From Portulaca oleracea (taxonomy: Eukaryota > Streptophyta > Magnoliopsida > Caryophyllales > Portulacaceae): a DNA stretch of 64,000 bases. The translations under genes were made by a program, and so were the position numbers. The notes below the pieces were generated by a model. It saw nothing but the letters and a program-made list of their open reading frames with translations, ran no database searches and was not told the DNA's origin. The stretch is taken from NCBI GenBank assembly GCA_029582165.1, contig CM055892.1, positions 5,118,754-5,182,753 on the forward strand, written 5' to 3'. Positions 2,856 through 57,797 of this stretch are shown here, piece after piece (within the stretch, counting starts at the first letter, position 1; every line of letters starts with the position of its first letter).

Positions 2856-4375
2856 TGTAGGACCCCGGGAAAAGGGGGCATCCCCTTTTCTCCGTGATGC
2901 GCTACTTAAACGATCGGGAGCCGACTAAGGTTGCTTAATCCTTAAATAAGGATATTTTTTATTTTATTAAATTAGTTTTCGGGGTGGTGAAATTTTATTT
3001 ATTTTACAAATCCGTTTTTATTATTTAAATATTTGAAATTATGCCAAAAACATATTAAATATAACTTAAAACCGACCCAAACAACAAACTCAAGCCCAAA
3101 AGAAAGCAACCGAACCGCCAAGAACTGTCAAAACCCGCGCGAGTTTTGACTGGACTTGGGCTAGGCCATCCACTTTCGTGGGCCAGAGAAAATGAGTTAG
3201 AAACAGTAAAACCCGTGCGGGTTTTATAGTTTCATGGCTCATTTTGTCTCGACTTTAGCCTTGAATGTGATGAATGGGAAATGTTAAGTCATTTTTAAGT
3301 AATTTTAGTGTAAATTCCAAGATTAAATAATTAAACACATTATAAAAAGAATAAAAAGAGTCGCCAGCCGATTTAAGGAAATCGACAAACCATAAAATTA
3401 AAAATAACTCCGGTCTACGAAACCTGACTCTAAGTCTGGGGGTAAGGTTACGAATTCGAGAATTATAAGAATTCTTGAATTCGGCTGTTAGAAAACAGAC
3501 TCTACTAAAATCGACATTAAAATGAAAATAGAGCGGGGAGAAGTTTAATTAATTTCGCAACTTTATATTCTTAACATGCATTATAAAACAAGGTTTTTAT
3601 TTACAAAATATGCATAAGTAATGGAAACGAAATATGAATTACATAATTAAAATAACAATAACGAAAGACACATAGGGCGAACCTCGTTGGTTTAGGAATC
3701 CGAATGCGCCGATCAAAATCTTGACTTCCTTTGACTTGGTGGATGAGAGGATGAGTATGAGGATGATAGAAGGGTGATATGTGCATAATGATGTGATGAG
3801 AATTTGGTAGAGTAAGAGGATGATAATAAGAGAATGGATAATAGAGAGAGTTTAAGAGAGTGTAGGTAGGATTATGATAATAGTTGGTGAAAATGAATGG
3901 AATGGAGGGGGGTATTTATAGGTGATGAGGGTAGTGTTTAGGATGGTAATGGAGGGAGACACATCCCAACAATCATGCCCCTATCCCCATGCAATCACCA
4001 AGTCAAGCTTTAGGGTCAACACACTTGGGCTAATATCATGGGATAATGATCAAGGTTTTTTGGCGCCGGATTTTTGAAGATAAAACCCGCGCGGGTTTTA
4101 TAATCCTTATACACGGATTGCTGACGTAGGCATGCAAAACGACGCACTTATGCCTTAGAAAACCGGCGGGGGTTTTGAAGTGCCTGGGCCGGGGCGCGCC
4201 TTGGGCCTGTCCTGGTTCTGGGTCGTCCTCTTCAACTAAAGCCCGTGCGGGTTTTAATGTTTGTAATGGGCCGGCTTGATTTGAATTGTTTGCATTGTTT
4301 GCTGCATTGGCCCAATGATGTATCCGGCCCTTTTGACAATTCGGAATTATATCGTTGCAAATCCCAATATCTACA
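2856..4375 (-). mobile_element. 5' LTR of element B
   Basis: A 1520-bp LTR reading leftward from TGTAGATATTGGG (at 4375) to GGTCCTACA (at 2856). It is homologous along its length to the LTRs at 14229-16150 and 56260-57797. A TATAAATA box lies on the minus strand at 3913-3920. It carries five hairpins of the AAAACCCGCGCGGGTTTT word (3130, 3208, 4082, 4159, 4238). It abuts the RT coding sequence of element A at 4376, showing that B inserted into A. The expected target duplicate (agtgc) would lie left of the window. Confidence 0.9.
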
Positions 4376-5059
4376 AGTGCGCATGTGTGTTGACTTCCGA
4401 GACCTCAATAAAGCTAGTCCCAAGGATAGTTTCCTGTTACCTCACATCGATGTATTAGTGGATAACACTTGCAGGCATGAGCTCTTGTCCTTTATGGATG
4501 GATATGCTGGTTACAATCAAATCAAAATGGCAGAAGAAGACATGGAGAAAACTTCATTCACTACACCGTGGGGAACATACTGTTATGTGGTTATGCCTTT
4601 CGGTTTCAAAAATGCCGGAGCGACAAATCAAAGAACTGCCAACACCCTACTTCATGACATGATGCACATAGAGGTAGAGGTTTATGCGGATTGTTAAGTC
4701 CAAAACAAGGGAGGAGCACATTCCTAACTTCCGCAAGTTCTTTCAGCGACTTCGCAAATACAAGATGCAGCTTAATCCAACAAAGGGCACCTTCGGTGTT
4801 ACCTCTGGGAAGCTGTTAGGTTATGTGGTTAGCCAACGAGGCATTGAAGTTGACCCTTCAAAGATAAAGGCTATCCAAGAGTTGCAGCCGCCCAGGAAGA
4901 AAAAGAGATAAGAGGCTTCCTAGGACGAGTTCAATACATCAGCAAGTTCATCTCAAAGCTCACCATGACTTGTGAACCTTTATTCAAGAAACTAAAAAAA
5001 AGGAAGTAAAATAGAATGGTACGATCAATGTCAAGAGGCCTCTACTCCTTTACCTTACC
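4376..5059 (+). pseudogene. pol: Reverse transcriptase of element A (5' cut, frameshifted)
   Basis: RNA-dependent DNA polymerase domain. The reading starts mid-domain at KVRMCVDFRDLNKAS because element B is inserted there. FMDGYAGYNQIKM and VMPFGFKNAGAT are clear RT motifs. The catalytic YVDD box is destroyed: the copy reads VYAD and then shifts frame at about 4690, where the intact sister has VDDMIVK. The thumb region (HIPNFRKFFQRLRKYKMQLNP to about 4911) follows in a second frame. 4912-5059 is frame-broken, and the segment joining RT to RNase H is largely deleted. Confidence 0.9.
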
Positions 5060-5860
5060 GTGACTAGCTCTACAATGGGGGCTATGCTAGCTAAAAAGGT
5101 CAAAGGTCAAGAGAGTGTCATCTACTACTTGAGCAAGAAGTTCCTGGACTATGAAAGTCGATACGCAGACATAGAGAAAATGGCTCTCGCATTAGTATGG
5201 GCCACTAAGAAGTTAAGGCATTACATGCTTTCACATACAGTATATGTCATAGCTGAGAATAATCCCATCAAGTTCATCATGGAGCAACTTACCATGAACA
5301 ACTGCATCGCTCGATGGGTGGTCATGCTTTCAGAGTTCAATCTTCAGTACTTGCCTCAAAAATCCATCAATGGGCGGGTTGTTTCAGATTTCGTAGCTGC
5401 TTCACCATCACAGGAACCTCTAAGCACTCACTTGGAATTCCCAAATGAGGATGTATTTTCCATTGATGAAATAACATGGGAAATGTATTTCGACGGAGCT
5501 TCTAATCAAATGGGTTGTGGAGTAGAAGTCCTGTTAATATCACCAGAAGGGTCACATGTCCCTGTATATATAAAGTTGGATTTTGATGCTACTAATAACG
5601 CCGCAGAATATGTAGCATGCATCAAGGGTTTACAAGCTGCGTTGACCTTGGGTATACGCCATATAAAGGTCTTTGGAGATTCTAGCCTCATCATTAATCA
5701 GATTAAAAATACATGGAAAGTCCGGAATGAATGTCTTATGGCATACCAACAGAAGCTCTTGGGACTTGCTGACCAATTTGAGCAAATTAGCTTCCAATAC
5801 CTTTCAAGGGATCACAATGAGTTAGCTGATGCTCTAGCCAAGTTGTCTTCAATGATATGA
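5060..5860 (+). pseudogene. pol: Tandem RNase H domains of element A (RT-linked plus archaeal-type)
   Basis: An open stretch of 266 codons. The first half is the RT-linked Ty3 RNase H (SRYADIEKMALALVWATKKL, then ARWVVMLSEFNLQY). The second half is an additional archaeal-type RNase H, diagnostic of the Tat lineage. Its four acidic positions are visible: Asp in YFDGASN, Glu in NNAAEYVAC, Asp in VFGDSSLI and Asp in HNELADALA. This is the best preserved piece of A. The first codons are missing because of the upstream deletion, so 5060 is the start of the open stretch and not a true initiation codon. Confidence 0.88.
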
Positions 5861-7198
5861 ATCCTATCAGGCACGTTCCAACTACCAGTAGTAGTAGAGC
5901 GGCAGTCTGAACCGGCATACGTCTGCAATATAGAGACACACGAAAAAGAATGGTTCCATGACATATACAATTTTCTTCAGAAAGGAAAATACCCAACTGA
6001 GTTAGATGCTCGAGGACAACGAGCAGTCAGATCTTTAGCAGCACAATACTGCTTGATCCAAGATCGCCTCTACAGGAAATCACCTACAGGCATTAATTTA
6101 ATTTATTACGTATTGATGCTAAGAGTGCAAAGAAGGTTATGGCTACTGTACATGGAGGAGAATATGGGCCTCACATGAATGGGCGCATGCTGGTGAAGAA
6201 GATTCAAAGGACTGGTTATTAGTGGTCCTCTATGGAGGCAGACTGCTTAGAGTTCGTTCGAAGGTGTCACAAATGCCAAGAATATGCAAACCTACAGCAT
6301 CAACCCCCATCATATCTAACTACTTTGACATCTCCATGGTCGTTCTTGGTATGGGGTATCGACATCATTGGCAATATACACCCAATCGAAACAGGAGGGC
6401 AAGAATACATCTTGGTTGCCAATGACTACTTTACTAAGTGGGTAGAAGCAGCCTCTTACTCCAAACTCACATCCAAGCAAGTGGCCAAATTCATTCTCCA
6501 AAACATCATATGTTGATATGGAGTGCCTCATGAGATCATTAGTGACAATAGAAGCCATTTTTGGAAGGAAGTAGAAACTTTGCTCACCACTTACAAAATT
6601 CGGCATCACCGGTCTTCGCCATACCGACCTCAAACTAATTGAGCTGTAGAAGCGGCCAATAAAACAGTGGCTGGAATCATCAAGAAAATGGTTGTCACTT
6701 ACAAAGATTGGCCTGACAAGTTGGCATTTTCCTTGTGGGGATACCGAACCTCTATACAAACTGCTACAGGTGCAACACCATATTCTTTGGTATATGGGGT
6801 GGAAGCAGTCCTATCAATTGAAGTAGCAATCCCTTTGTTACGTATAGTGGCCGAAAGTCAATTGCCAGAAGCAGAATGGGCTAGGACAAGGTTCGAGGAG
6901 TTAATGTTGATGGACAAAAGGCGATTGAAGGCATTGCATAATGTACAAGTGTACCAAAGTTGGATCACTCGTGCTTTTAATAAGAAGGTGAAAAGTCATT
7001 CACTTCAAGTAGGTGATTTGGTGCTTAAGGAGATGAGGGACCTATACAAGACCCAAGGGGAAAATTTGCACCTAATTGGAAGGGTCCTTATATGATTAAG
7101 GACATTTTTCTTGGAGGAGCAGCCCGGCTTACTACTATGGATGGAGAAGATATAATTCAACCCACGAATTTGGATCAGCTCAAGCGATATTATGCTTA
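5861..7198 (+). pseudogene. pol: Integrase of element A
   Basis: Integrase with a zinc-binding region (CLEFVRRCHKCQEYA) and a DDE core: Asp in VWGIDIIGN, Asp in EIISDNRSHF, Glu in AVEAANK. There are stops after ILQNIIC (TGA for CGA/AGA-type codon), at TN-stop-AVEA (TGA in place of glycine GGA), several frameshifts at 5990-6230, and a frameshift at about 7090 that ruins the C-terminal end. The expected last residues, of the DQLKRYY type, are near 7180-7198. A pseudogene. Confidence 0.88.
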
Positions 7199-7432
7199 AT
7201 ATATCGCAGCAACTGGAAAACCAATTTTCAGACACTTGGTGTATATTCAATAAATGTTCCTGTATATAAGAAAAATAAAGTTTGCAAGAATACAATAATT
7301 GTGAACAATATTTCTTCTTTATTAATTGATAATGCAAGTACACTGCTTGTAAATAAGAAAATTCAAAAGGCATAATTAAATAAAAGATTATTCCTGCAAA
7401 GCATTTTCAGTTCCTTCATTCCCGTCCATCTT
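7199..7432. other. Spacer between pol and antisense gene 1 of A
   Basis: Two convergent genes end here. I see only AT-rich sequence and no hairpin word or gene. Confidence 0.6.
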
Positions 7433-8902
7433 CTAGTCTTGCCTCGCTTTCTCTACTTTGACAGTGGTCTCATGATCAATCTCCATGTCTCTAGACCCAT
7501 TAGGGTCTTTCTTTTTGTCTTTGGGCTTATAGACCAGCTTGCTTAGTTTCCGTGTCTCCATTCTCGGACCAAGTCTGTCTTTCAACGAATCTTTTACAAC
7601 AAGGTGATCCTTTACTGATGTACGGGGGCCCAATCTTTCCTTCGCAGATGCTTGTCTTCTTCTCCCCTCTCCGGCACGATGAGATTCAATAGCTGCAATT
7701 AGCCATCCATGGTAGCCAGCGTCAGCAATTTGGGATACGTGTGCCTTTGGAAGAGCTTTAAGAGTTGGCCTTCTTTCCCAATATTTTAGCCATGACTCTA
7801 TCACTGAGTTTCGAAGCTTCATTTGTTCATGAGCTTCACACAACAGCTCGGGGATATTTTGTTTGCGACCTATCTGTCGCCTCACCCGCGCCGGAAAATA
7901 AAAGGTCATCTGCGTCAAACCGGCAAGGCACACATAGGCGTTACGTGAATCATGAGTCACATACTCGGAAATGTGCCATTGTTCGATCCACCATGTGATG
8001 TCACGAGGTTCCTTTAGAAATGCGATCCATTCCGTTACCGAGTGGAGATCATTGTACTTCCTCTTCCTCTAACAATAATTCGCCAATGCCGAAGAAGTTC
8101 GGGGTTCTTCGATGAGGCCCAAGGGTTCCATTAACCAGATCTGTCCATAAAGTTAGCCAGGGTAAGATTGCATGCCAATTATCCCAAACTAACGAAAAAA
8201 AAAAATGTGTAAAACCCGCGCGGGTTTTACAGGCAGTAGAGGCAGAAACAAAAGAGAAGAAAGAAGGAAGAGTGAAATACCTGAAGTAGCAGGGGGCTTC
8301 CTCGAAATTCATGCTCTGTATTCGGATCGTCCAAGCCCATCATGGTTTTCGCTAGCATTAGAGGTACAGAATTGTAGCCCCGGGACATGTCTTGAACAAT
8401 TTGAATCAAGTTTGCCAGTCCGGTTCTCTTGCCACCGTGGTAGAAGCAAAACTCACCGAGGAGACATAATACGAGCACTCGCACTCGTATCACTGGGCCA
8501 TATTCCAAGGTATCGGGAGATTGGAAATATTCAACTATGGTTTGAAAGTGTACCTTTTCGCCAAATATTGCACTTCCGATGACCCGAGAGGGAAGACATA
8601 AGAGCTCTTTAGATTGCTTGGGGATGTTAATTGGTGTCAGAGGTGACGTTGGTCGGGCAAAATGATTCGTCCCTAGGATTGAGGACCACTCCTCCGGAAG
8701 CGGACATAACTCTTTCCTAGTGAACCGAAAAACGTGCATTTTCGGATCCCAAAAAGACTCCGCCGCTCGGAGAAAGTCATGATTGACTCTCACTTGTCGA
8801 AGGCTAGCTCAACAAGCTCGTCAATTTGTACCTTTCGAGCTCTTTCTTCTCTTCCTTGGACAAGGTGCTCATCCAAGTAGCAGGTTTCTTCTCAAAAGCC
8901 AT
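7433..8902 (-). pseudogene. Antisense extra gene 1 of element A (DUF7745-like)
   Basis: A gene antisense to the element. The start MAFEKKPATWMSTLSKEE at 8902 is chosen because element E has the same MAFEKK start at 26359. A frameshift follows after about 30 residues. Then FWDPKMHVFRFTRKELCPLP, a long helical middle (SKELLCLPSRVIGSAIFGEK, IRVRVLVLCLLGEFCFYHGG) and a C-terminal exon (AYVCLAGLTQMTFYFPARVR, VIESWLKYW, then a Lys-rich tail). The pattern resembles a family I recall as DUF7745, found in plant retroelement-linked proteins; function unknown. A likely intron runs from a CAG/GTATTT donor near 8282 to about 8145 and contains a perfect hairpin at 8208-8231. Confidence 0.7.
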
Positions 8903-9729
8903 GGGAATTGGGAGGTTTTTTTTGTGTTTTTCGAGAATATGAGATGAAGACTTTAAAGTGAAGATCATGAGTAATTATCATATGCACAAAATGAGGTAAT
9001 TATACACCTTCATCCATGATCAAAATGGAGAAAAGAAGTCAGCAAGTGATCATGTAGCCATTGCATTCAAATCCCATGATTTATGCCATCCACAACGGCT
9101 AGCAAAAAAAAAGAAAAAAAATCAAAACCCGCGCGGGTTTTGATGCTCCCAGACCCACGCGCGCGCTTGGCCAAGCCCAGGCCCAATGACTGCTGAAGGG
9201 AAAACCCGCGCGGGGTTTGTGGCGAAATGGGCCCGCCTTCAGCGATCAGCCCACCTGTTTTACGATTTTAGTTGGGCCTTGTGAATTAAATCGGCCCACT
9301 CATGTATCTTTAATGTTTTGGGTTTGGTCATTGACCCAGTGATGCTCGATTCTGAAATTTTTGCTCGAGTTTGCTCTGACACTTAAGTTTTATGTTTTCT
9401 TCTATTTTCTTTTCTTGTTGGGGAAGCGAGATTAATTTGGGACTAATCCCGTCATGTAGAAAATCATTCAAACATGCATTAATAAAAATGAAGTCGTGCA
9501 TTCACCGAGTCTTGCATATAAAATAAATATAAAATTCATAAAAAGTCTTGCATTAAAATAAAAAAAAGTACAAAATAGCCTTGCATACAAAAGTTTAAAA
9601 TGCATAGAGTCTTGCATAACATCAGTTTGGTCACCACAAGGAGCCCGAATCGCCGCTATCTTCAACCGGATTGTTACCACCATGTGAAGTCCCAGCGTTG
9701 GAGGTGCGAGCCGTGCCAAAATAGGTGTC
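8903..9729. repeat. Spacer between the two antisense genes, with two hairpins
   Basis: No gene seen. Hairpin words lie at 9124-9141 (extended by ATC/GAT arms to 9121-9144) and 9201-9218. About 9468-9620 has several loosely spaced copies of 'agtcttgcat' in an AT-rich background, also recognisable downstream of the matching gene in element E (about 26820-26880). Confidence 0.65.
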
Positions 9730-12700
9730 CTAGGAATAGTAGTCGAGACTAGGAGCCGTCTGCACAGGAGGCGATGGCTCAGACAAGGGAACTCCAGAAA
9801 GATGTACGCTCGATGGTGACGATATGGAATGCTCCTGCGAAGCGGCTAGCCATGAATGGTCAGGAACATGCCACTCAACAGAACGGGTAGGCCATACAGG
9901 ACCAGTTCCATAACCGGGGGCTGGCCAACCAGAAGAAGCAGATCCTCCCAGCCAAGAGTGTTGAGGTGCAGACCACTCTTGCATACCCGTAGGCCATGAG
10001 GGACCCATCCCAGGAGTCGGAACAGGCCATCTAGTAGAATGAGAGCCAGAGCCAAAAAAGGAAGCATCGTAGAATGTAGGACGTGAAGTAGCGTCATCCG
10101 CTAGGGCCTGACTGCCAGGATTCCCTACGGATGCACCTGAGTCATGGTCCCTCACCACTATCTCTCGACCATTTCGAGCAGAACGCATTGAGGCTGGAGT
10201 ACGATGAGAATGAGAGGGCTGGTAGGTGGCGCTTGACTCTGAAGCATCTTCCACCCAATAGGAATGGGGCTGAGTATCACCACCATACCCAACACTGTGA
10301 TACGACCCCCTGACCAAGTGGCTCCTCCAAGGACATCTGAGCCATGTCCTCTTCCATATTCGGAGGACGACGATCTCTGCTACCGGATCTGCTACGATGA
10401 GACCCAGTTGAGTGGTGACCCTCAATCATAATGCCTTTGCCGCGACCCTCTGGCACAACTGCTAGGGGAGGACGAGAAGATCCACCAACTTCTTCCCGAG
10501 ATCGGCCTCGAGAAGAATATTCCCCTACCGAAGAACGGCGTGGGGGCTCGGTGTTGCTCCTGTAGTAGAACGTCGAAGTGGCTCCCTGGGAACAAACTCT
10601 GCATCGGCCTCCATCTCAGCCCTTCCAATGGTATTGCCGCGATATCTACCTGAGCCGGTGAATGCCCGGTCAATATGCTTCTTCATAGTGCTCCAGTTGG
10701 CGGAGGAAAGCCCATCTTGGCTGAAAGATAATGAGACTAATATTATACATGCATAAGTGACATGTGGGATAAAAGGAAGCAACATGAAACGAAGAATTAC
10801 CGGTTTCTGATCGAATGCTTGGAGTGTAGAACACTCATTGATGTTCTCTACATCCAAGAAGCCGCCAATCCGTCTCCTCGCTGGTGGGAGCTCCAACTCA
10901 GCGGCCTTAGCATAAGGCCCTAGCTGTAAACCTTATGGTCAGGGATCAACCAAAATATGACAGAGATAAGGGAAAAAGATACATACCACCCGGGGAGCCA
11001 AACGACTCAGATAACGCTGGATTTCCTCATTGAACTGCTCCTGCGGAACTTCATGTACAAAGTTATCAAAGTCATGACCACGAATCAGATCTCTCAGAAC
11101 ACCCGCATCGACACGCCATGGCTCGAACATGTGCTCCGGAGGATCCTGGGGAATAAGACTGGGATATCCCCCCAAGATTTGCCTCGAAGCTCTCACTCCC
11201 AAGTACCATACGAAGCCTAAGGGTCCCTCCATCAGAATGCGGAGGCGAGTATCATGTTCCTCTAGTTACAAAGGGGTATGCAATCCACCCAAGTTGAATT
11301 CAACCCAAGGACGCCAATTCACTTGATCCTACGAAAGAAAGTGAGTCATTTCAAGCATGGAGGAAAATAAAAGGAGGATGTCAGGCATAAAGAAATACCG
11401 GCGTAAGGTCATCCAGCACACGACGAATATGGTCGAGACTGCTTGGCTGGAATTTCTTCCCATGAATGGCCTCAGCAGTCCAGCGTTCAGCAATCGGGCC
11501 CGTCTTATCTTTCTTTGAGCGACTACCCAAAGGTAGAATGTACTCGTATGCCCACAACTGCATGAACATAAAGTCAAAGAAAGAGCAAAAGAGTAGCAAT
11601 ACTACAAAGAGAAGAGTCTCGGGTACATACCTCGAGCACCTTCCACAGAGAGGGGCCATACTGGTAGCGATATGAGTCTCATGGAGATAAACTGGATCAT
11701 CGTCCAGTGAAAGTCTGACACCGCGGCGAAGCCAGAGAATGATGTTCGCATAAGCCGCTTTGCCCCAGTTCAGATTCCGAACATTATTCAGGTCCATAAG
11801 ATTCCGAAACCATGTCAAGGTGATGTTGTCTCATGGTTAGCGAAAAGGGTGGCGGAAATAATGTACGCCAGGAAGATAAAGCGACGTTGATCCCCTGGCA
11901 CATTTTGGAAGTCGGCATCACGAATGGCCGCTTCGAAATGTGCGTAAGAGAGGTTCGAAAGGCCTTGCCCTTGGCCTAAGCGCGCTAACACCGGACCCAA
12001 CCTGTCCAGGACCATCGGGAGAATCTTGGCATCAAATACTACGTCGCGCCCATCCCAAGGAAGGCCGGTGATCATAACGAAATCTATGGGAGTGACGACA
12101 TTTCACACACAGGCAAATGAAAGGAGTTGGTAGTGTCCCAAAACCTTTCAGCCATAGCATGTCCAATGACGCGGAATGTTCGACCTCTCCAAGCCACCAA
12201 ACATTTCCAAAACGACATAAGACCCGCCGCGGTCAATGTGTTACTGACAAAGTCTCCAGGAATTGATTCAGCTACTTTAAGGGGATCTTTTAGGGCATCG
12301 AGAGTCTTCAAATTATCCTCCTAAAGGCAAACAAATTTTCAGGATGCTATTCAAAACGCGGGGCGGGCTAATTCAAAACTTTGGGCTTAAGGACAATTTT
12401 TGGGCCTAAGCTGGACCCAGCACAGGCACCGGGCTCACAACCACAGCCCGTAAAATAAACAAATAGCCCAAACAACCCGGCCCAGTGATGAAAAAACCCG
12501 CATGGGTTTTTATTCAGAAAAAAAAACAGGCCCGCAGCAAACTGACGGCCCATGAGACAACAAAACCCGCGCGGGTTTTCCTATGCAGCCCGCCTCCTTT
12601 GTCGATTGGGCCAAGCATGCATGGGCCCAGTAAAATAAAACCGGCGGGGGTTTTCTCCAAACTATGGGCCGGGATTGGTCATTTCAGATCCATTTTACAA

Positions 12701-13033
12701 ATTGGGTTCTCGGTCGGAATGCAAGAATAAAAAAGGGTCATCATGGAGTAATACATACGCATCAATTTAAAGCATGCTTAAAATAATGAAAATCGACAAG
12801 ACATGAATAATAAATTCATGCTTGCTCATTTTCACATTAAACTAAGCACAAAAAGAAGATTCAAAAATTACCTTGTCATGGGATCGGAAGAACCAAGCGT
12901 GGTTCCAAGATTGAATGGTGAGCTCCGAAGGATCAGCATTTGCTCCAGGGATGAAGTTGCGCCGTGAAGACATCTCATGGGGCCATGCCGCCGCATTAGG
13001 AAGAGGAGGATTTCTATGGCCTCGGGGATGCAT
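9730..13033 (-). pseudogene. Antisense extra gene 2 of element A (plant mobile domain protein)
   Basis: A multi-exon gene antisense to the element. Exon 1 (13033-12872) starts MHPRGHRNPPLP and ends at an AAG/GTAAT donor. Exon 2 begins at 12320 after a TTTAG acceptor. The plant mobile domain signature follows: AERFWDTTNSFHLPVCEM, then ITGLPWDGRDVVF. Later blocks are WGKAAYANIILWL, AERWTAEAIHGKKFQPSS, EGPLGFVWYLGVRASRQILG and a Ser/Pro/Gly/Trp-rich tail ending DYYS at 9730. Two frameshifts (about 12075 and 11818) break it. The PMD is known in transposon-linked and MAIN-like plant proteins; its role inside retrotransposons is unknown. The 551-nt intron 1 holds three hairpins. Confidence 0.78.
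12493..12654 (+). repeat. Three hairpins inside intron 1 of antisense gene 2 (A)
   Basis: AAAACCCGCATGGGTTTT at 12493, AAAACCCGCGCGGGTTTT at 12562 and AAAACCGGCGGGGGTTTT at 12637. All lie between the donor at 12871 and the acceptor at 12321. The matching intron in element E (about 38221-38382) is only about 160 nt and has none. Confidence 0.85.
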
Positions 13034-13145
13034 TTTCTAAAAAACCCCAAACTATCTTCGAAGAGCAAATTTTTCTAGAGAGAAGAAAGAGCTAAAGAGA
13101 TGGGGAGGAGTGAAGATATGAATGAATGAAATGAGTAAGGCATGG

Positions 13146-13153
13146 TATTTATA
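13146..13153 (-). promoter_or_regulatory. TATA box for antisense gene 2 of A
   Basis: TATAAATA on the minus strand, 113 nt before the ATG at 13033. Element E has TATAAAAG at 38673-38680, 126 nt before its homologous ATG. The conserved spacing suggests the antisense gene has its own promoter. Confidence 0.55.
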
Positions 13154-13353
13154 GAAATACTGAGTGAATATGAGCCGCTCGTTTTTAGGACTCGCCTCGA
13201 GATGCCAAATGCGTTTCATTGGCCGAAAATCCAAGGGTCATCACCTTGCCACCCAAAGAGGAGACACGGCTGCATGGCACATTCTCATCCACACAAAGAC
13301 GGGACCCACTTTGATTCGCTTCACCAGGAAAAAAAAGAAGAAAAGAAAAACTG

Positions 13354-13450
13354 AAAACCCGCACGGGTTTTTGTGGTTTCTGTAGGCCCAGCTTCGCGGC
13401 CCGGCGCCTCTCATCGGCGCAATAAGACTTATAAAACCCGAGTGTGTTTT
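13354..13450 (+). repeat. Two hairpins upstream of antisense gene 2
   Basis: AAAACCCGCACGGGTTTT at 13354-13371 and a degraded copy, AAAACCCGAGTGTGTTTT, at 13433-13450. They lie upstream of the antisense TATA box. Confidence 0.8.
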
Positions 13451-13689
13451 ATTCTGATTAGGGCCTGATTCCGCGGACCAAGATCCCCTCAGTCCATTCA
13501 AAGCAAATCATGCGACACAAAACCGATGGCCCAAAGACTGCGGCCTAGGGTTTCCAAAGTTCCGGCAAAAGTTTGAACCTTCCTCAAATGTCGATAAAAC
13601 GGATACTTATTTTCTTGTGATTTTCAGGTCACCGCTAAAAAAATCCGATAAATCATCGGTTGCCACATAAAAGAGCACCATCATCATCA

Positions 13690-14110
13690 GCAGTCGTCCA
13701 ACGGATGCCACTTAAAGGTCTCCGACGATATCATCAGCAACAGTCGTCCAACGGATTCCACTTAAACGTCTTTGACGATGTTAGCAACAACAGTTGTCAA
13801 ACGGATGCCATTTAAAGGTCTCCGACGACATCATCAGCAGCAGTCGTCCAACGGATGCCACTTAAAGGTCTCAGACAACATCATCAGCAGCAGTCGTCCA
13901 ACGGATGCCACTTAAAGGTCTCCGACGATATCAGCAGCAGCAGTCGTCCAACGGATGCCACTTAAAGGACTCCGACGATATCAGTAGCAGTCGTCCGACG
14001 GATGCCACTTAAAGGTCCCCGACAATATCATCAAGTCTCCAACGACATCCTCAGCATCAGTCGTCCAACAGTTGCCACCTAAAGGTTAGCGACGGCATCA
14101 TCATCAACAA
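13690..14110 (+). repeat. Tandem array, 50-bp unit, before the 3' LTR of A
   Basis: About eight units. The landmark 'cagtcgtcca' starts at 13691, 13741, 13791 (variant), 13841, 13891 and 13941, giving an exact 50-bp period, then at 13988 and about 14055 in degraded form. The unit continues with 'acggatgccacttaaaggtc'. Tandem arrays just before the PPT are a known property of Ogre/Tat 3' untranslated regions and can seed satellites. E has an unrelated array at the same place. Confidence 0.9.
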
Positions 14111-14213
14111 CATCATTTGGTCGCCGTATAAAAGAGCTCCGCCAGCATCAAGACAGACATCAAGCAGGCAGCATCTCAAGCTACTTTGACCTTTGTCCTA
14201 TTCGGACTCGATC

Positions 14214-14228
14214 AAAGTAGGGGCTCTC
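14214..14228 (+). promoter_or_regulatory. Polypurine tract of element A
   Basis: AAAGTAGGGGCTCTC immediately before the LTR start TGTAGACACC. The same arrangement (AAAGTGGGGGCTATC) precedes the E LTR at 39790. Confidence 0.75.
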
Positions 14229-16150
14229 TGTAGACACCGGGATTCGCACCGATATAATCCCGACTCATCAAAAGTTCAATAAATCATTTGGGCCGGATGC
14301 TAAGATCGGTCATTGGGCCCATGTAATAAGCGAAGCAAGCTCAACGGTACAAAACGGCCCAGTACTTGGAACGAAACCCGCACGGGTTTTAATAAGTAAA
14401 GGCGGCCCAAAAGCAGGACAAGCCCAAGGCGCGCCCTGGCCCAGCGACTTCAAAACCTGCGCGGGTTTTCTATTGTCTGAAGCGCGTCGTTTTGCCCCGT
14501 CCACGTCAGCGATCCGTGCGAGATTATTTAAAACTTGCGTGGGTTTTCTTTTTTAAACTCGGCGCCAAAAAATGATCACAACCCCTTGATAAACAAAAAA
14601 TTACTCGGAGGTACCCCAATATTTGGGGAAACTATTTTTTGGTACCCCAACTTTTCAAAACTCATTTTGAGGTACACTTACTTTTCGGGTTAATAATTAT
14701 TTGATGCTTTTTCGGCCATAAATTTTATTAAGTGACCGAAATACCCTTATTGTTCTTCTTTAAGGGTATTTCCTAAAAAAAAATGAAAGAATAAGGGTAT
14801 TTCGGTCATTCAACCAAATTGATGACCGAAAAAGCACCTAATAATTTCTAACCCAAAAAGTAAGGGTACCCCAAAATGAGTTTTGAAAAGTGAAAAATAT
14901 TTCACCAAAAGTTTGGGTACCTTTGAGTAATTTTTTGCTTGATATTAGCCCCATGTGTTTGACTTTATTTTTCCTTGACTTGCCAAAACCTGTGGGGGTT
15001 TTGTGATTTGCATGGCATGATCAATGGGGATGTGTCCCCATGATTTTCCCTCCAAATCACTACCTCCTCACCTATGAATACCCCCTCTATTTTCACCTTC
15101 ACATCATCAACTATCCTCCACTACACTCATACTATACTTAAATCTTCTCTCAAAATTTCATACTTCCATATTCACTCTCTAAACCTCCTCTAATCTCTTT
15201 TAACACATCCATATTATCACCCTAGTACCATTTTCCAAACCACTTCTATCTTTCCATCAAGGTCCAAGCTCAAGGCAAAGTCAAGGATTTCAACCGGCAC
15301 ATTCGGGTTCCTAAAATTAAAAGAGTTCGCCTTATTGCTTTCTTTATTATTATTATTTAATCATGTAATTTATACATTAATTCCATTACTTGTGCACATT
15401 TTGTAAATAAAAACCTTGTTTTATATTGCATGATGAGAATATAATCTCGTGAAATTAATTAAACTTCCCCCCGCTCTTTTTCATTTTAATGTCAATTTTA
15501 GTAGAGTCTGTTGACTAACTGGCGAATTCGAGAGTTCTTATAATTCTCGAATTCGTAACCTTACCCCCGGACTTAGAATCGGGTTTCGTAAACCGGAGTC
15601 ACTTTTCATTCTTTTATGGTTTGTCGATTTCCTTAAATCGGCTGGCGACTCTTTATCACCCTTTTCTACAAATCCTTTAGTTATTTAAAATAAACGATAA
15701 TTGCACAAAAATCATTATAAATAATTTAGTACCACTTTTTTATTAATCTAAGGCCACCCAAGAGAAAACGGGCCAGAAGATTAATAAAACCCGCACGAGT
15801 TTTATTAATCTTCACCCCTTTTCTATGGGTCGAAGTTGCACAAGGCCCGGCCCATGGCACCATAAATTCCGCGCGGGTTTCAAGGTCCCATGGCGGTCTC
15901 TTTGTTACTTCTTGGGCCCGGATGGAATAATGGGCTGATACTAAATTTATTAGTAAATTATTTTAGTGTAATTTCGGATATTTTAATAATATAAAAGAAT
16001 TTGTAAAATAAATAAAGTTTCATCACCCCGAAAATGAATTTCGAAAATAAAAATATCCTTATTTAAGGATTAAGCAACCTTAGTCGGCTCCCGATCACTT
16101 AAGTAGCGTATCACAGGGAAGAGCGGTCGCTTCTCTCCCGGGGTCCTACA
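14229..16150 (+). mobile_element. 3' LTR of element A
   Basis: A 1922-bp LTR from TGTAGACACCGGG to GGTCCTACA, or 1569 bp once its internal MITE and one target duplicate are removed, close to the 1520 and 1538 bp of the sister LTRs. Degenerate TATA box TATGAATA at 15073-15080. Six hairpins lie at 14373, 14452, 14530, 14985, 15786 and about 15864. It abuts E codons at 16151; the first five bases there are gtaag. Confidence 0.93.
14594..14937. mobile_element. MITE family 1, copy 1 (9-bp TSD, Mutator-like)
   Basis: A 344-bp non-coding inverted-repeat element with termini CAAAAAATTACTC and its complement, flanked by cttgataaa and cttgatatt (7 of 9 bases match). The arms carry repeated 'ggtacccyaa' motifs. 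It is absent from the same place in LTRs B and D. Same family as 48100-48458. A 9-bp duplication fits a Mutator-like transposase acting in trans. Confidence 0.85.
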
Positions 16151-35160: not shown

Positions 35161-35175
35161 AAGCATGGGGGGATT
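35161..35175 (+). promoter_or_regulatory. Polypurine tract of F
   Basis: AAGCATGGGGGGATT directly before the 3' LTR start TGATAACAC. Confidence 0.85.
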
Positions 35176-40919: not shown

Positions 40920-41830
40920 GTACGATAACGCTCCAACTCGTGGAGGGTGAAGATTAGCTTGAGTAGCTGAAGGGATCGATATTCAACAAGAACAAAGGTC
41001 TTGAACACCCAAAGGATGGATATGACCTTGGGCAAGGAGAACCACAACCCTAGGCCTAACACGCCACCATGATTATCCAAGGTAATCCACTACAGAATCA
41101 CTAAAGGAATGACTTGAAACACCACCAAAATCTATTAGAGAAAGTTAACAAGGTTTTTGGGGAAGTTGGGATAAACCCTACAATGCCAAGCATTACATTC
41201 AAATCTCAAAAAAACTGCCAAAACATTGGAAGGGAGGGGGTATTTATAGGAATGGAGGAAAGACAAGCAAAACGCAGTGTTTAACAGCAAAAATACGCAG
41301 TTCGACAAGGTCGTCGTGGGCGCGACGGGTTGGGTCGGGGGCGTGACCTCCCACTGTCTCGGCACTTCCTCGCCCAACCGACGATAGTCGCGGGCATTAC
41401 CTGTTGCTTCGCGGGCGCGAAGAACTGCCCAGGGCAGGGTCACGGGCGCGACCACCCGCTGCCCAGAAACCCCCTTGGCCCTGCTACCGTATGCCGTGAC
41501 CGCTACATGTCCGGTCGCGGGTGCGACGGTCTGGCCAGGACGATGTCTCGGGTGTGACAGTGCTGACTCGGGCGTGACTGCCTGCTGTCGACCGGCGCTA
41601 GTTTCTCCGTGACTTCAACGCTTCCATAATCACTCCCGAACCCCGATTCTTCGATGTTTCTTGTCCCGAGACAGCCCGGTACGACCGCGAGGCCTACGGG
41701 ATTGGGGGAACAAGACCCGATTCTTCGATGGTTCCCGAAAGAGCACGGGTGACCGGGTTTAGCTCGGGAATGCCAGGTCGGGATTTCAAGCCCGGCTAAG
41801 GGAGGTCGAACCCGAACCCGGCACGTTTCA
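40920..41830 (-). mobile_element. 3' LTR of G
   Basis: Reads leftward from TGAAACGTGCCGGGTTCGGG at 41830. TATA box (minus) at 41241-41248. Hairpins with CGGGCGYGA cores at 41313, 41333, 41407, 41438, 41544 and 41564. The final bases differ from the 5' LTR, and the junction to E contains the perfect palindrome TTATCGTACGATAA (about 40914-40927). Confidence 0.85.
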
Positions 41831-48099: not shown

Positions 48100-48458
48100 C
48101 AAAAAATTACTTAGGGGTACCCTAATTTTTGATGAAATGTTTTTCTGGTACCCCAACTTTTAAAAACTAATTTTGGGGTACCCTAAATTTTAGAATTAGA
48201 AATAATTAAGTGAAATTTCGGCCAATTATTTGAATTCGGCGGTGAGTTTTAGGCAGAGAATCGATTAAGTGTTTTTGTGGATGAAAATGCCCTTTGTTTT
48301 CGTGGACGAAAATGATTTGAATCGATCGGAGTTTCGCCGAAAATTCACTTAGTAATTTCTAATCCTAAAAGTTAGGGTACCCCAAAATTAGTTTTAAAAA
48401 ATTAGGGTACCAAAAAATTGTTTCTTCAAAAGTTAGGGTACCTCTAAGTAATTTTTTG
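48100..48458. mobile_element. MITE family 1, copy 2 (perfect 9-bp TSD)
   Basis: 359 bp, termini CAAAAAATTACTTA and its complement, flanked on both sides by ttattcttt (48091-48099 and 48459-48467). Three 'ggtaccctaa'-like subterminal motifs per arm, as in copy 1 at 14594. Perfect flanks suggest a more recent insertion than copy 1. Confidence 0.92.
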
Positions 48459-49386: not shown

Positions 49387-50334
49387 TTATCCAAAGGGTC
49401 TTGATACATCCTTACATTCATCGTTTTGTTTCATAGGTGCTTGACTTTCTTGCATAATCTTTGAACTTCTCTTGCATATAGAGGAGATCGTGGATGGCAT
49501 TGTCTCTTTCAGAGTAGCTTCTTCCTCGAAAATGTTCGCATCGGCAAAATGCGACTCAGCTTGAGAAAATGGTTTAGCATCTCTGTTAATGTTTCTTTCA
49601 CCATCCCGATAATACTTAAGACATTGATGGAGCGTGGAGGCTACTATCCCATGCTCATGGAGCCATAGATGTCCGAGTATCAACTTATAAGATGTCCTGG
49701 CATCAATTACATGAAAGATAGTGGATGTTACCAAATCACCCATAGTTAGCTCTAAACGGATCATGTCAATCATACATTGACCCTCCAAATTAAACCATGA
49801 GTCATCATTCTACTCTTAGATAGTTCTTCTGTCGTGATTCCTAGATAATTCGTGCCAGCATTAGGCATGATGTTAACGGCAAAACCTCCATCCACTAGCA
49901 TATGTTTCACCTTCTGTTCCCGAATATAACCGGTCACGAACAAAGGGCGGTTGTGAGGTTGGTCATCATCTGTAAAGGTGGCTGCCATATTACAACTTAC
50001 AAGCAGAGCATTTCTTCTTGGAAATGGAAGACTTCATTCCAACTCTTGTGCGTTGGCAAAACCTCTAAGATAGCTAGAGTCTTCTCATTACCTTTTGTTG
50101 ATTTTGTCTCCTTTTCTTCTCCTTATTCCCCGTCTACTTGTTCAAAACAAGATGTCACGTTAACGGTGATGTTCCCGAAGGAGTCGTATGGAAGAACTTA
50201 TACTAGTGTATTACCGCGGGTCTTTAGTAGAACATGCTTCGATACAAATATGATTGACCTCAACAGACTATAATGCATTTTTCAAGTGGATGACTTACGA
50301 CCCTATGATAACGACAATACCTGGGGTCAGAAGT
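49387..50334 (-). pseudogene. Protease and gag zinc-finger region of element I
   Basis: Zinc-finger-like CRYHRVVSHPLEKC at about 50310-50270, then many stops, then the protease: QPHNRPLFVTGYIREQKVKH, active site LVDGGFAVNIMP, a deletion after LSKSRMMTHG, and LTMGDLVTSTIFHVIDARTS, LILGHLWLHEHGIVASTLHQ. An Asp-Gly-Gly active site is normal for this group. The usual Gly-Arg-Pro has become Gly-His-Leu. Confidence 0.82.
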
Positions 50335-51769
50335 TGACAGACCTAAAAGTATAAGGTGTCTGTGCACCGCAAGTGTACGGGTCTGTGTAGTAATAAAATA
50401 TCGTTCTCTCTCAGGGATTTGCGTTCAACCACGCACTGAACTAATTCGCTACAAAGAATGCAAGGTCAATCCAAGGGTTGTGGTAAGGTTTTCTAAAACT
50501 AAACTAAGAAAACAGGAATTTTTTTAGGGTTTAACCAATTAATTAAAAGCGTTCAGGGGAGTCCACTCTAGTCAATCAATCAAATTATCAACAATCTCGG
50601 TGCAGGTAACAAGATAATTCGGGGTCTACAATCTTTCTAGGCCTTATCACTTCGATCTTTAGATCCTAGGTGAGTTACAGTGATTAAACTAAACATTATT
50701 TCTAACTATTTAATCTAATCAAAGATAAGAACTGATTATAAATTGACCCTAGGCAAGAATCATTATGTCTAACTATTTTCTAAACCTATTCAATCTACGC
50801 CTTCCAATTCAAGACTCAAACTGTCGTCATGTTGTCAAGAATTTATTACCAAGTAAAGTCTCAAACTATCGTTCTGTTGCCAAATTACTATGACATACAA
50901 TACACGCAGATTAAACGAATAAAAGGATAACCTAACACCGAGACTGAATTCAAATTCAATCAATAGACATCGAGTTTATCCCCCAAACAAAGGAAATTAG
51001 CTACTTATATTATTGAAAGTAAACATCACAAAATCTAAACAAGAATAAGAAAGCATGAAAGAAAAATAGAAATAAACCGTGTTCGAATTGGCGGAATCGA
51101 TCTCTTCGTGTCACCCGAATCGATCTCTTTCGTCTCCTCCGATAACAAGCAACAATCTAATCTAATAATAATGTTTGAGAATTAATTGTAAAGAAAGTAT
51201 CTAAAAGCTATTCTAAAAAGCTCCCTAAAAACTACTCCAAGAAAAACGATAGAAAAACTTATTCAAACGGCGCGGACGAAACCCTTTTATAAGGCTGGAT
51301 TAGGGCACAAAACGCTGCCTGCGTTTTGGAAACGCTGGCTGCGTTTTGCTCCAAAAGTGAAACTCTTCCGTGTCTAGGCGCTGGCTATGCTTGGAAAATG
51401 CCAGCTGCGTTTTGCTTCTTCTCGGTTATCAAACTCTCTGGACAAGGCGTTGGCTGCGTTTTGGAAACGCTGGCTGCGCCTTGCCTTTTAGCCTTAACTG
51501 GACTTGGGCCGTGTGATTTTGGGCCGTTCTTCCTTCTTTCTTCTCTTCTTCTTCAACTTCTTTTTTTTATTTCTTTGATTTTTACTATTTCTCCTCCAAT
51601 TTTTCATGCCTTTTTTATATAATGCACCTAATTCCTGTAAAACACACCAAACTCGCGAACAAGTGTATAAATCACGGAATTTGACATAAAAATACGGGAT
51701 TTCAGATATAAAAAGCTTTAAACTGACATGTTTTGAGCCCTAAAAACTCTATATAAAAACGACTTATCA
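50335..51769 (-). mobile_element. Solo LTR of the F (Athila-like) family in element I
   Basis: Minus-strand LTR reading TGATAAGTCGTTTTTATATA at 51769 to CTGTCA at 50335; 1435 bp, colinear with the LTRs at 27490 and 35176. Flanked by perfect gaagt duplicates (50330-50334 and 51770-51774). F-type hairpins at 51310-51485. Arose by LTR-LTR recombination of a full insertion. Confidence 0.95.
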
Positions 51770-53303
51770 GAAGTCTTCCCAACTTCTTTTGGCCGTTTTA
51801 GTTTGGGAAGTTCATTGATCTTGTTTTCTAACAAGTCGTCTAACATTCCTTGCAAGTCCGAATCAGAAAATGGATACTTCTTCTCTTGGAGCTCCTTCAG
51901 TGTCAAATGTTTCTTCATAATGTCATGAGGGCTTCTTCCCATCAAACTTGGGTCTTCCTGAAATTTTTACGAGCTTACGGAAGAAACGAGCATAACTTCC
52001 TTAACTGAAGACATTATTCACGTAGAAGTCTTATTGATTTCACCTCTATCTTTCTTGGCTTTATATGAAAACCCGGACCTACTCTTACGACTTGCTATCG
52101 TCATCTCCATGTCGTGGGCTTTAGTGGCCGATTCTTGGAAAGTTGTTGGCTTGCTTATATACAAGACATAAAGTAAGTCTCATTACATGTCTTTGCACTC
52201 GAGCCTGAGTGATCTCCAACGATTGATGTAGTCCAAGACCGGCTCCTAGGACCATTGCTTTGTGTTTGTTAGCTCCATCATACTAACAGTGCGATGGGTA
52301 CTATAGAATCGATTAAGGAACTCTTGCTCCAGTTCTCCCCAACTGTCAATGAACTCTGGTTCCAAGTCTGTGTACTAATCAAAGTCGATGCCTTTAAGGG
52401 TTCTAACAAATTGTTTCACCAAACGATCTCTCTTGATCCCGACATTGTTGCAAGTTTCAATGAAATGCGTTATGTGTTGTTTAAGATTCCCCTTGCCATC
52501 AAAGTGAGTAAATTTTGGCGGCTGATAGCCGTGAGGCATGCGAAGGGCGTCAATCCTCTTTGTGTAAGGCTTCGTGTACAACTGAGTATTGTGAGAGCCT
52601 CCCCCAATTTGAGCTTTTAAAACATTGGCTACTAGGTTTTGGATTTAATCCACAAATAACTAGCCCAAGCCGGAACCATCTTCATATTTCTCTCCTTCGT
52701 CAAAATCCTCGTGATTGGACCTTTTGTCTGAATCTTTGTCTCCTGAACCCTCGTCGGAGTCGCTACCGGGTCGTTTTTCTAACTTCTTCGTCAGTTTCTT
52801 GATCCGCTCATCTTATCGCTTAATGTGCTTAGTCTTTTCCTCGCTTTCTTTCACGAGTCTTGTCAGCATGGCCTTTATAGCCTTGAATTTGTCTTCATAA
52901 TTCATAGCATATGTGACCATAACGGGCATAATAACAGTGTCGATAGAGTTGGTATCGGAATCGGAGGAGAGCGAATCCCTTGGAGATTTTTGCGTTTCCT
53001 CGCCATCTTCATGGTCTTCATCCTCATCACTCAATGGTTGATGGTGGGTCTCACACATCCATTGAGGGGCCATCTCCTTCAGGTCAATAGCTTGAATAAA
53101 AATAGTTTGGTTTACTCCCAACAAGTTGGAGTCAAAGATTTGCAACAGGCACTCACGTCAGCTTGTTTCTTGGCCTTAACATCGACAATCTTAGCCATCC
53201 TTCATGTGATTACTTCATTGGATGTTGCACTAGTTATTGATTCTATTGACTTGGATTGAGTAACTTTCTTCGAAGCATGATAGATGTTGATCTTAGGAGC
53301 CAT
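51770..53303 (-). pseudogene. gag: Gag of element I
   Basis: Start ATG 53303 (MAPKINIYHASKKVTQSKSI). Acidic segment (LSDEDEDHEDGEETQKSPRD), a coiled-coil-like NYEDKFKAIKAMLTRLVKES, then the capsid (KRIDALRMPHGYQPPKFTHF, HITHFIETCNNVGIKRDRLV, QFVRTLKGIDF), and further on LTLKELQEKKYPFSDSDLQG. Broken by several stops and shifts and by the solo LTR at its 3' part. Confidence 0.85.
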
Positions 53304-53373: not shown

Positions 53374-53378
53374 AAATT

Positions 53379-55735: not shown

Positions 55736-56259
55736 TTTACAGATTTTTGTGGAAATTCATAGAGAAGTGAAGAAAAGCCAAGAAAAATGAAGAAAATGAG
55801 GAAAGAAATGAAGAAAATAATGGAAAAGGTGGAAGAAGGACCAAGACCACCCCCCCCCCCCACCAGGGGGTAATTAGACGCCACCAGGGGGTACTAAGCC
55901 CTTCACCCAACAATGCTACTTCAAAATCCAAGTCCAACACCCCCCACTAGGGGGTAATTAGACGCCACTAGGGGGTACCCCCCAGCAGCGTCCAAGAACC
56001 CCCCACCAGGGGTACTAAGCCTCGCACGTCTAATGAAATCAAAAGCGACGCTACCAGCGTCCAATTTCCCCCCACCAGCATCCAAGTCAGTAGCATCAAG
56101 AGGGCTACACGTTGCCAACGTTTCCCAACCCACGCCCAGCTTTTATGTTCGGAAATTGTTGACGAATACAACAAAATGCCAGCGTTTACGTTTGTCTAAT
56201 TCTTTGGCGCCGTTAATTGAACGCTAGGGTTTTTAAGATGTGTATTTGTTGTTTGGTTT
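55736..56259 (+). repeat. Hairpin-rich, C/G-biased block (probable LTR remnant)
   Basis: A purine-rich stretch (55760-55845, reminiscent of the region before the hairpins in the F LTR) leads into several hairpins sharing an ACCA/ACTA loop: CCCCC/GGGGG (about 55858 and 55990), ACCCCC/GGGGGT (55938-55957) and GACGC/GCGTC (about 56046-56062). It ends where the D LTR starts. I infer an LTR remnant of another family; no ends were found. Confidence 0.6.
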
Positions 56260-57797
56260 TATAGACACCGGGATTTGCACCGAAAAAATTCTGACTCGTC
56301 AAAACTCAGCAAGTCATTTGGACCAAAAATCAAAACGGGTCATTAGGCCCACGGAGTCAACAAAGAGGGCCCAACAAATCAAAGCAACCCACTCGGAAAT
56401 AATAAAGGCCGCATAACCTTTATCAATTGACAAGCAGACCCAAAACGCGAATCCGGCCCAGTAAAAACAATATAAGTCGCCTGACCTTTGAGTTAAGTAG
56501 CGGCCCGCCTTCTCTAGCCACGTCATCAATCCGTGCCATTTAATCTCATAGGCCGCCTGACCTATATCAATTTATTTGATTTTGGCGCCATAATTTCCAA
56601 GCATCCCTTGATCATAGAAACATGTGAATTTGACTTTGGATTGACCATATTATTGCTATAAGCCGCATGACTTATAAGCTTGCATGGAAGGGCTTGATTT
56701 TGGGATGTGTCCCTTACCTTTTCCCTCCAAAACACTCATCCTCCACCTATAAATACCCCACCATTTTCATTCATTCATCATCAACTATTATCATCACTCC
56801 ACCTAAACTCTCTCAAATTTTTCTCTATTATACATCGTCCCTCTCTAATTCTCTTATAACCACTCTCATCATCTCATATCATTCTTATACCACCTTCTAA
56901 TCATTCTCATATCCAACCTTCCATCCAAGCTCCAAACCAAGGTCAAGATAAGGGATCATTCTTCAAACATCCACCATTAAGCAAGGTTTGCTTTTCATTA
57001 TTATTGTATTTAATTATGTAATTTGTGCTTTAATTCCTTCATTTGTACTTCTTTTGTAAAGGAAAACCGCATTTGTTTTATATTGCATGTTCAAAAATAT
57101 GATGTTGTGAAATTTATTAAACTTCTCCCCGCTCTTTTCAATTCAAGCTCGATTTTAGTAGAGTCTGTTTTCTAACAGGAGAATTCGAGAGTTCTTTTAA
57201 TTCTCGGATTCGTAACCTTACCCCCGAGCTTAGAATTCATGTTCGTAGACCAGAGTTATTTTTTATCATTTTATGGTTTGTCGATTTCCTTAAATCGGCT
57301 AGCGACTTTTTCTTCTTTTTACCATTTTTTTAATTTTATAAATACACGTCTTTGCATAAAAATATTTAAAAATGATTTAATACATTTATATCAACCAATT
57401 CAAGGCTAACCCAAGAGAAAATGGGCTCAGAAATTAGTAAAGGCTATGCGGCCTTTACTAATTTCAACCCATTTTCACTGGGCCGAGGGAATGGAAGGAC
57501 CAACCCAGTAAACATCAAAGGTCAGGCGGCATTTGATATTTTCTGAAGGTCCATTTGTTCCCTTTTAGCCTGAATCTGGGGATGGGTCGGTATTAAGTCA
57601 TTGATAAAATATTTTTGTATGATTTCGAGTATTTTTGTCATATAAATAGGTTTGTAAATAAATAAAGTTTCATCACCCTGAAAACGAATTTCATAAAGTA
57701 AAATTATCCTTATTTAAGGATTAAACAACCTTAGTTGGCTCCCGATCACTTAAATAGCGCATTACGGGAAAAGGGTCACCTCTCCCAGGGTCCTACA
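56260..57797 (+). mobile_element. D-type LTR (Tat/Retand-like)
   Basis: 1538 bp, from TATAGACACCGGG (TG mutated to TA) to GGGTCCTACA, homologous along its length to the LTRs of A and B. TATA box TATAAATA at 56748-56755. Six hairpins occupy the same six positions as in A but use a different word (core CCGCMTRA). No primer-binding site follows; instead a PMD coding fragment abuts. No PPT precedes it and no target duplicate is found, so it is a rearranged or solo LTR. Confidence 0.88.

Follow-up and report, generated by a model that had tools for sequence, protein, structure and literature searches.

The closest described counterparts of the system considered here are found in VANDAL transposons and in the Tat/Retand and Grande retrotransposons of plants. 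In Arabidopsis, the VANC protein binds motifs in the non-coding parts of VANDAL elements and evolves together with them (Hosaka et al. 2017, PMC5735166), and it is also VANC to which PMC12844716 points. In the Tat/Retand and Grande literature, gene23 of Grande is an antisense gene with its own upstream promoter and a nuclear protein product (PMC7264820), Retand TRP28 is predicted to bind DNA, and the role of the antisense accessory genes is called unknown (PMC7264820, PMC11963269). We analysed 64,000 nucleotides of Portulaca oleracea (assembly GCA_029582165.1, contig CM055892.1, positions 5,118,754 to 5,182,753), and this whole stretch is referred to as the window. It holds nested long terminal repeat (LTR) retrotransposons, recognisable as plant elements by plant-specific Pfam matches such as PMD and ATHILA, and in one group of their LTRs near-palindromic words of 18 bp stand at up to six fixed places, here called slots. 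The slots of one LTR mostly carry one type of word and related subfamilies carry another; these words may be private operator sites of a sequence-specific DNA-binding protein.

As in the VANC and VANDAL system, a short motif is repeated in non-coding DNA, in introns and upstream of element genes, and it differs between related elements with many copies changed together, here blockwise in one group of LTRs (E-type, see below). The carriers are different, however, as VANDAL elements are Mutator-like DNA transposons and those studied here are Ty3/gypsy LTR elements with RNase H and integrase. The present words also occupy dispersed fixed slots about 70-110 bp apart, with mixed orientation in one subfamily (D-type), whereas the VANDAL motifs form dense tandem arrays of one orientation (PMC5735166). 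With Tat/Retand and Grande the elements share antisense open reading frames (ORFs) between pol and the 3' LTR, but a word shared by the LTR and the region upstream of the antisense genes is not reported in the available parts of those papers (PMC7264820, PMC11963269). The preliminary description of this DNA knew of no name for the pattern, and the VANC target motifs are in fact a close precedent (PMC5735166). In titles and abstracts of the literature, dispersed, subfamily-specific palindromic words in plant LTRs were not found described, nor do the available parts of a paper on LTR structure (PMC3601003) and of one on insertion-site palindromes (PMC6911290) describe any. An LTR-end pattern scan of IMG/VR, in which records of this genome may be left out, gave 0 matches.

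Three LTRs of the window, A, B and D, align end to end, as had been proposed for A and D.

14229-16150, plus strand: LTR A, a 3' LTR as judged by eye from its flanks
2856-4375, minus strand: LTR B, a 5' LTR followed by a sequence that by eye resembles a primer-binding site
56260-57797, plus strand: LTR D

The internal part of element A spans 4376-14228, and LTR B is inserted within the reverse transcriptase of element A. No primer-binding site or clear target duplication was seen by eye beside LTR D. Based on the LTR ends and the layout, the lineage may be of Tat/Retand type. When the 350-bp foldback insert of LTR A (14591-14940) was left out of the alignment, words 1-6 of LTR D shared their alignment columns with words 1-6 of LTR A. 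LTR B carries the A word in five of the six slots, slot 4 being absent. The correspondence of slots claimed in the preliminary description was thus borne out for all three LTRs.

14373-14390, plus strand: A word, slot 1
14452-14469, plus strand: A word, slot 2
14530-14547, plus strand: A word, slot 3
14985-15002, plus strand: A word, slot 4
15786-15803, plus strand: A word, slot 5, at the apex of a long stem (15776-15813)
15864-15881, plus strand: A word, slot 6
4238-4255, minus strand: B word, slot 1
4159-4176, minus strand: B word, slot 2
4082-4099, minus strand: B word, slot 3
3208-3225, minus strand: B word, slot 5
3130-3147, minus strand: B word, slot 6
56404-56421, plus strand: D word, slot 1
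56472-56489, plus strand: D word, slot 2
56548-56565, plus strand: D word, slot 3
56658-56675, plus strand: D word, slot 4
57439-57456, minus strand: D word, slot 5, reverse orientation
57517-57534, minus strand: D word, slot 6, reverse orientation

The foldback insert, which lies between slots 3 and 4 of LTR A, is related to another foldback element of similar length (about 350 bp, like a miniature inverted-repeat transposable element) at 48100-48458.

The A word, AAAACCCGCRCGGGTTTT, gave 38 two-strand matches with up to 3 mismatches in the window, equal to 19 sites, where 0.08 matches are expected. The D core, GSCCGCMTRACC, gave 16 matches with up to 2 mismatches against 10.6 expected, and 16 was reached in 10 of 100 shuffles. 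The D core alone is therefore not significant at this threshold; its weight lies in six matches in six homologous slots.

To extend the comparison beyond the window, its own genome (1.13 Gb) was searched with LTRs A and D, giving 60 LTR loci which, together with B, form an alignment set of 61 LTRs. As 40 of 10209 and 40 of 6700 candidates were scored, this is a sample of close relatives. Each slot was assigned its best 18-mer at a distance of up to 10 bp, a procedure that favours matches; the null was therefore the same procedure at random LTR places. Two LTRs, L006 (U3 not homologous) and L016 (slots 1-2 lost), were dropped from the counts of majority words and score margins, from the similarities within and between LTRs, and from spacing, orientation and arm pairing.

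In the 31 A/B-type LTRs, 163 slots were scored and 23 were empty. The A word was best in 157, tied with the E2 word (see below) in 4 and tied with D in 1, so it was best or tied in 162 of 163; the single D call had a score of 11 and came from L006. In the 28 D-type LTRs (163 scored slots, 5 empty), 154 slots were best matched by D, 6 by D and E1 equally and 3 by E1, so that D or its near variant E1 was matched in all 163. The word score was 14-18 of 18 in 160 of 163 slots of either type, whereas random LTR places scored 8-13 in 1710 of 1716 trials. The A score led the D/E1 score by 3 or more in 127 of the 155 A/B words, and D/E1 led A by such a margin in 159 of 163 D words. The claim of one word type within an LTR and another between subfamilies therefore holds for the A/B- and D-type LTRs, in which random mixtures of words across slots are not the pattern. 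The A majority words were AAAACCCGCACGGGTTTT (slot 1), AAAACCCGCGCGGGTTTT (slots 2 and 6), AAAACCCGCGTGGGTTTT (slot 3), AAAACCCGTGGGGGTTTT (slot 4) and AAAACCCTCACGGGTTTT (slot 5). Those of D were AAAAGCCGCATGACCTTT, AAAAGCCGCCTGTCCTTT, ATAGGCCGCCTGACCTTT and ATAAGCCGCATGACCTTT in slots 1-4, in that order, and AAAGGCTATGCGGCCTTT and AAAGGTCAGGCGGCCTTT, both reverse-oriented, in slots 5-6. In some A-type LTRs (L012, L020 and L025) the array is longer by one word, which lies about 76 bp upstream of slot 1.

In LTR trees built without the slots (L006, L014, L016 and L018 left out), a single branch splits A+B from D+E, with a support of 0.975 on the whole LTR, 0.81 on U3 and 1.0 on R-U5, and word type follows the LTR tree. 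The E-type LTRs L057 and L060 are nested inside D in all three trees; they group with L050 as sister in the whole-LTR tree (0.71) and the R-U5 tree (0.97), and their place in the U3 tree is unsupported (0.15). The 12 slots of these two LTRs are mixed, with 5 E1, 3 E2, 2 A/E2, 1 A/D/E2 and 1 D/E1. Six further E-type LTRs were read (L065-L076; 6 of the 40 places scored among 6382 candidates, two pieces each). Their U3 slots were best matched by E2, AAAACCCGCTGGGGTTTT, in 23 of 24 cases and by E1 in one, and their U5 slots by E1, AAAAGCTATGCGGCTTTT, in 11 of 12 and by D in one. E-type LTRs thus mostly have one word in slots 1-4 and another in slots 5-6, and blocks can switch separately. The preliminary description had all six slots switching together, which is so between A/B and D; as the U3 block of E differs as a block inside the D+E clade, it is no law. 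A recombinant origin of E, with an A-like U3 and a D-like U5, was considered and is disfavoured, since the E flanks are closer to D than to A in both parts (0.76 vs 0.64 in U3, 0.82 vs 0.78 in R-U5) and E lies inside D+E in every tree.

The words, which had been described as LTR hairpins, are not confined to the LTRs, as the A word is also found eight times inside element A (8211, 9124, 9201, 12493, 12562, 12637, 13354 and 13433), an element that has two broken antisense genes.

7436-8950, minus strand: antisense gene 1, DUF7745/PMD-like, broken; segments include 8230-8808 and 7436-8068
9660-12087, minus strand: antisense gene 2, broken, the first segments of which are PMD-like
8211-8228, unstranded: A word between two coding segments (a probable intron) of antisense gene 1
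9124-9218, unstranded: two A words (9124, 9201), upstream of antisense gene 1 by 174-250 bp as measured from its outermost recognised segment
12493-12654, unstranded: three A words (12493, 12562, 12637), upstream of antisense gene 2 by 406-550 bp as measured from its outermost recognised segment
13354-13450, unstranded: two A words (13354, 13433), with the 3' LTR following after about 0.8 kb

Six-frame comparison showed both antisense genes in A-type and D-type elements. Another A-type copy, L061, has eight A words in places matching those of the window. A third, L064, whose stretch ends before the region upstream of gene 2, has three A words scoring 17-18 as well as three weak matches, of which an A-like and an E-like one score 14 and a D-like one scores 15. 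In the D-type L062, 11 matches scored at least 14 (2557, 3396, 3481, 3555, 3602, 6859, 6938, 7017, 7095, 7824 and 7951), and every one was best matched by D or an E1-like word. The counts at thresholds of 14, 15 and 16 were 11, 10 and 6, against 0.83, 0.17 and 0.08 in shuffled sequence; the matches at 3396 (14) and perhaps 2557 (15, in a probable intron) could be due to chance. Two E1-like matches lie in L063, which is close to an E-type LTR and is interrupted by a different element. The first word lies 174 bp upstream of the outermost segment of gene 1 in the window, L061 and L064, and 183 bp upstream in L062 if a weak match at 98 bp is left aside. For gene 2, the words start 406 bp (window), 419 bp (L061) and 405 bp (L062) upstream. 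Of three further D-type stretches, two (L078 and L080) show homology in the region upstream of gene 2, with D words there, and one (L079) does not. In 15 of 60 loci there are matches some 0.8 kb ahead of the LTR: nine A-type loci have pairs of words that are A or E2-like (the distance in L016 being uncertain), five D-type loci have D or E1 pairs, and L032 has a single E1 match. A further PMD-like ORF fragment, below the Pfam cut-off, is located at 37267-37923 (minus strand) of the window.

Spacing is regular, and in A-type loci mostly 76-80 bp from word to word. In L001-L030, 95 of 112 neighbour distances below 150 bp were 72-80 bp, and 92 of these were 76-80 bp. The distances between slots 2-3 and 5-6 are constant (76-79 bp), whereas slots 1-2 are mostly 79 bp apart in A and 69 bp in D, and slots 3-4 about 100 bp in A and about 110 bp in D. 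Although the data are few, these two differences of about 10 bp, near one helical turn, hint at a constraint of helical phase. In D, slots 1-4 are in plus orientation save one tie, while the reverse orientation is found at slot 5 in 23 of 28 LTRs and at slot 6 in 25 of 27, with the remaining 5 and 2 on the other strand. Orientation is thus mostly kept within a subfamily, and slots keep their own flanks and sub-variants. Across the 61 LTRs less the dropped rows, pairing of the arms outside the 18-mer clearly exceeds the null at slots 5 and 6 of both types and slightly exceeds it at slot 4 of A and at slots 1 and 3 of D; slots 1-3 of A and slots 2 and 4 of D show no pairing above it. Stems clearly longer than the word occur only in slots 5 and 6, so that at the other slots the hairpins of the preliminary description amount to near-palindromic 18-bp words. 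A GGCCCA-type motif is found at preferred offsets near slots 1, 2 and 6 of both types, for example at -17 in 16 of 28 (A slot 1), at -15 in 22 of 27 (A slot 6) and at +33 in 19 of 26 (D slot 1), figures that carry no chance control.

A near-palindromic, orientation-free, regularly spaced word that lies mostly upstream of genes and differs between subfamilies is best read as a private operator. We give a probability of just under one half (about 0.48) to the words being private operator sites for a sequence-specific double-stranded DNA-binding protein, likely encoded by the element and changing together with its word, as judged from sequence. That orientation is not fixed suits the reading of double-stranded DNA. 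Each subfamily's word would mark the element promoters for one such protein, which would bind it, probably as a dimer, and either switch those promoters on or lift their silencing. The antisense genes would have promoters at their upstream words, and the reader may be one of the two antisense PMD/DUF7745-like proteins. An element-encoded reader is suggested by analogy with VANC, where such a protein reads the motif, and by the presence of the antisense genes. The protein families differ, however, as the antisense pieces match PMD/DUF7745 and the VANC reader has DUF1985/DUF287 (PMC5735166). Neither DUF1985 nor DUF287 was matched in the antisense pieces scanned, and TRP28 (PF04195) was not found in them, the scan covering part of all pieces; unlike in Tat/Retand, the matches were to PMD/DUF7745 and not to transposase 28. 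A homologue search with one gene 1 segment found 1 protein among 158 candidates. The word probably changed in small steps, as all word types share a half-site near AAAASCCGC and the E-type words look intermediate, and a changed reader could drive all slots to the new word with no need for copying. EBNA1 and the papillomavirus E2 protein are virus-encoded dimers that read operator palindromes. Dispersed palindromic sites, an own protein and own promoters are common to those systems and the one proposed here, but the likeness is an analogy only, as they belong to DNA viruses and the proteins are unrelated.

Several observations weigh against the private-operator explanation. To our knowledge, PMD/DUF7745 is not an established DNA-binding domain, and the antisense pieces gave weak Pfam matches, of which DUF7745 of L064 alone passes the curated cut-off. 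An operator has no need of the long stems at slots 5-6, and the GGCCCA motif is absent at slot 3 of D-type LTRs and otherwise rare at slots 3 and 4. E-type LTRs carry two words, which needs two readers or one tolerant reader, and the one E-type internal stretch that was read (L077) had no word scoring at least 13 and no match to the antisense region. A-D identity is 44-77% in gene 2 pieces and 58-73% in gene 1 pieces, compared with 81% in RNase H and 83% in the best 78 integrase residues; another 37 integrase residues are 51% identical, and RNase H of two A-type copies (window and L064) is 74% identical, so a faster divergence of the antisense proteins is not secure.

The preliminary description had explained the pattern by a copying process that spreads one word through all slots of an element, for which gene conversion or template switching by reverse transcriptase could be responsible. 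The D slot pattern is indeed concerted: the similarity between slots within one LTR (0.746) exceeds that of a given slot compared between A and D (0.587), and control 18-mers show the reverse (0.32 within, 0.48 at the same place between A and D). Copying in one burst when the word switched would be compatible with the data. However, different slots are no more alike within one LTR than between LTRs (0.856 vs 0.855 in A, 0.746 vs 0.745 in D, values reached in 303 of 1000 permutations for A and in 290 for D), and a given slot, compared across LTRs, shows higher similarity (0.888 in A, 0.817 in D). Ongoing copying between slots is therefore not supported, and the slots evolve by descent; copying would also have to move only about 18 bp without shared flanks while slot-specific arms and sub-variants persist, so we regard it as rather improbable. 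The slot pattern fits common selection by one reader, not ongoing copying. Plain descent, in which a founder's words were inherited and the A-D difference reflects old independent drift combined with the sampling of a similarity search, would explain why word type follows the LTR tree with its A+B and D+E clades, and close relatives are over-represented among the few candidates scored. Drift does not lead six LTR sites and about ten internal sites to one new word, though, and there is a second blockwise difference inside the D+E clade. The comparison of paralogous and orthologous slots contradicts pure drift, which leaves this explanation very improbable.

A reader need not be encoded by the element. 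A host transcription factor or silencing protein could read the word, with subfamilies using different host factors, and the GGCCCA-type motifs near slots 1, 2 and 6 of both types, which presumably correspond to host TCP sites, would agree with this, as would the CGCG core of the A word, which we take to resemble a CAMTA site. An 18-bp word differing at every slot between related subfamilies is unlike a short host site, however, and escape from a repressor should lose sites and not install a new word everywhere; a host reader is unlikely for these reasons. The words could also act as hairpins of the genomic RNA in packaging, dimerisation or end-to-end kissing, their loops co-evolving with a reader. 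Every slot may lie in genomic RNA, slots 5-6 have long stems in both types and, being mostly reversed relative to slots 1-4 in D, would give complementary loops; arm pairing at the 19 window sites was 63 of 152 against 45.9 (5 of 5000 shuffles). Set against this are the slots whose outer arms do not pair above the null, the orientation flips, which alter an RNA loop, and the D word itself, in which position 4 is A in 42% and position 15 is C in 89%, so that pairing is often broken (marginal counts). Like copying, RNA hairpins therefore have a small probability. Kissing loops between U3 and U5 were rejected, as slots 1 and 5 of A/B have a same-strand CAC variant and some D slots flip, and so was covariation of an extended stem, because the significance at the window sites is carried mostly by slots 5-6 over the 61 LTRs.

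Returning to the private operators, a fuller version would have each subfamily run its own element-encoded activation or anti-silencing system, with its own word at three promoters (the LTR and the two antisense genes) and its own PMD-type reader; this is a tentative proposal which we consider doubtful. If it holds, subfamilies would be insulated from one another and PMD/DUF7745 proteins would be a new class of DNA readers. The host PMD proteins MAIN and MAIL1 act in the silencing of transposable elements, and one promoter motif is found in 25 of 26 genes commonly down in the mutants of both (PMC7156037); the gene-control and silencing roles of host PMD proteins derived from transposable elements would then be explained. 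If the element's own protein reads the word, plant LTR retrotransposons would have address systems like that of VANC in DNA transposons, and the role of antisense accessory genes in Ty3/gypsy elements would become testable. The subfamilies would also offer a natural series of matched proteins and DNA words, in which specificity changed and many sites followed.

A second near-palindromic word, AAAACGCWGNCWGCGTTTT, gave 16 matches in the window against 0.11 expected. It is carried by an Athila-like element (27488-36646) and by a related LTR (50331-51773), at spacings of about 20 and 65-69 bp.

27774-27946: AAAACGCWGNCWGCGTTTT repeats
30877-30964: AAAACGCWGNCWGCGTTTT repeats
35533-35656: AAAACGCWGNCWGCGTTTT repeats
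51309-51482: AAAACGCWGNCWGCGTTTT repeats

The copies at 30877 and 30946 are 0.8 kb upstream of an ATHILA ORF-1-like gene, and the word also stands in the Athila-like LTRs, which suggests that more than one lineage has a word system. Palindromes are also repeated elsewhere: a cluster of AACCGC...GCGGTT with short spacing lies in the flank of an A-type LTR (L023, 3097-3556 as oriented), and in another repeat family of the window GGTCGCG...CGCGACC palindromes are repeated at 45804-45886 and 41447-41530.

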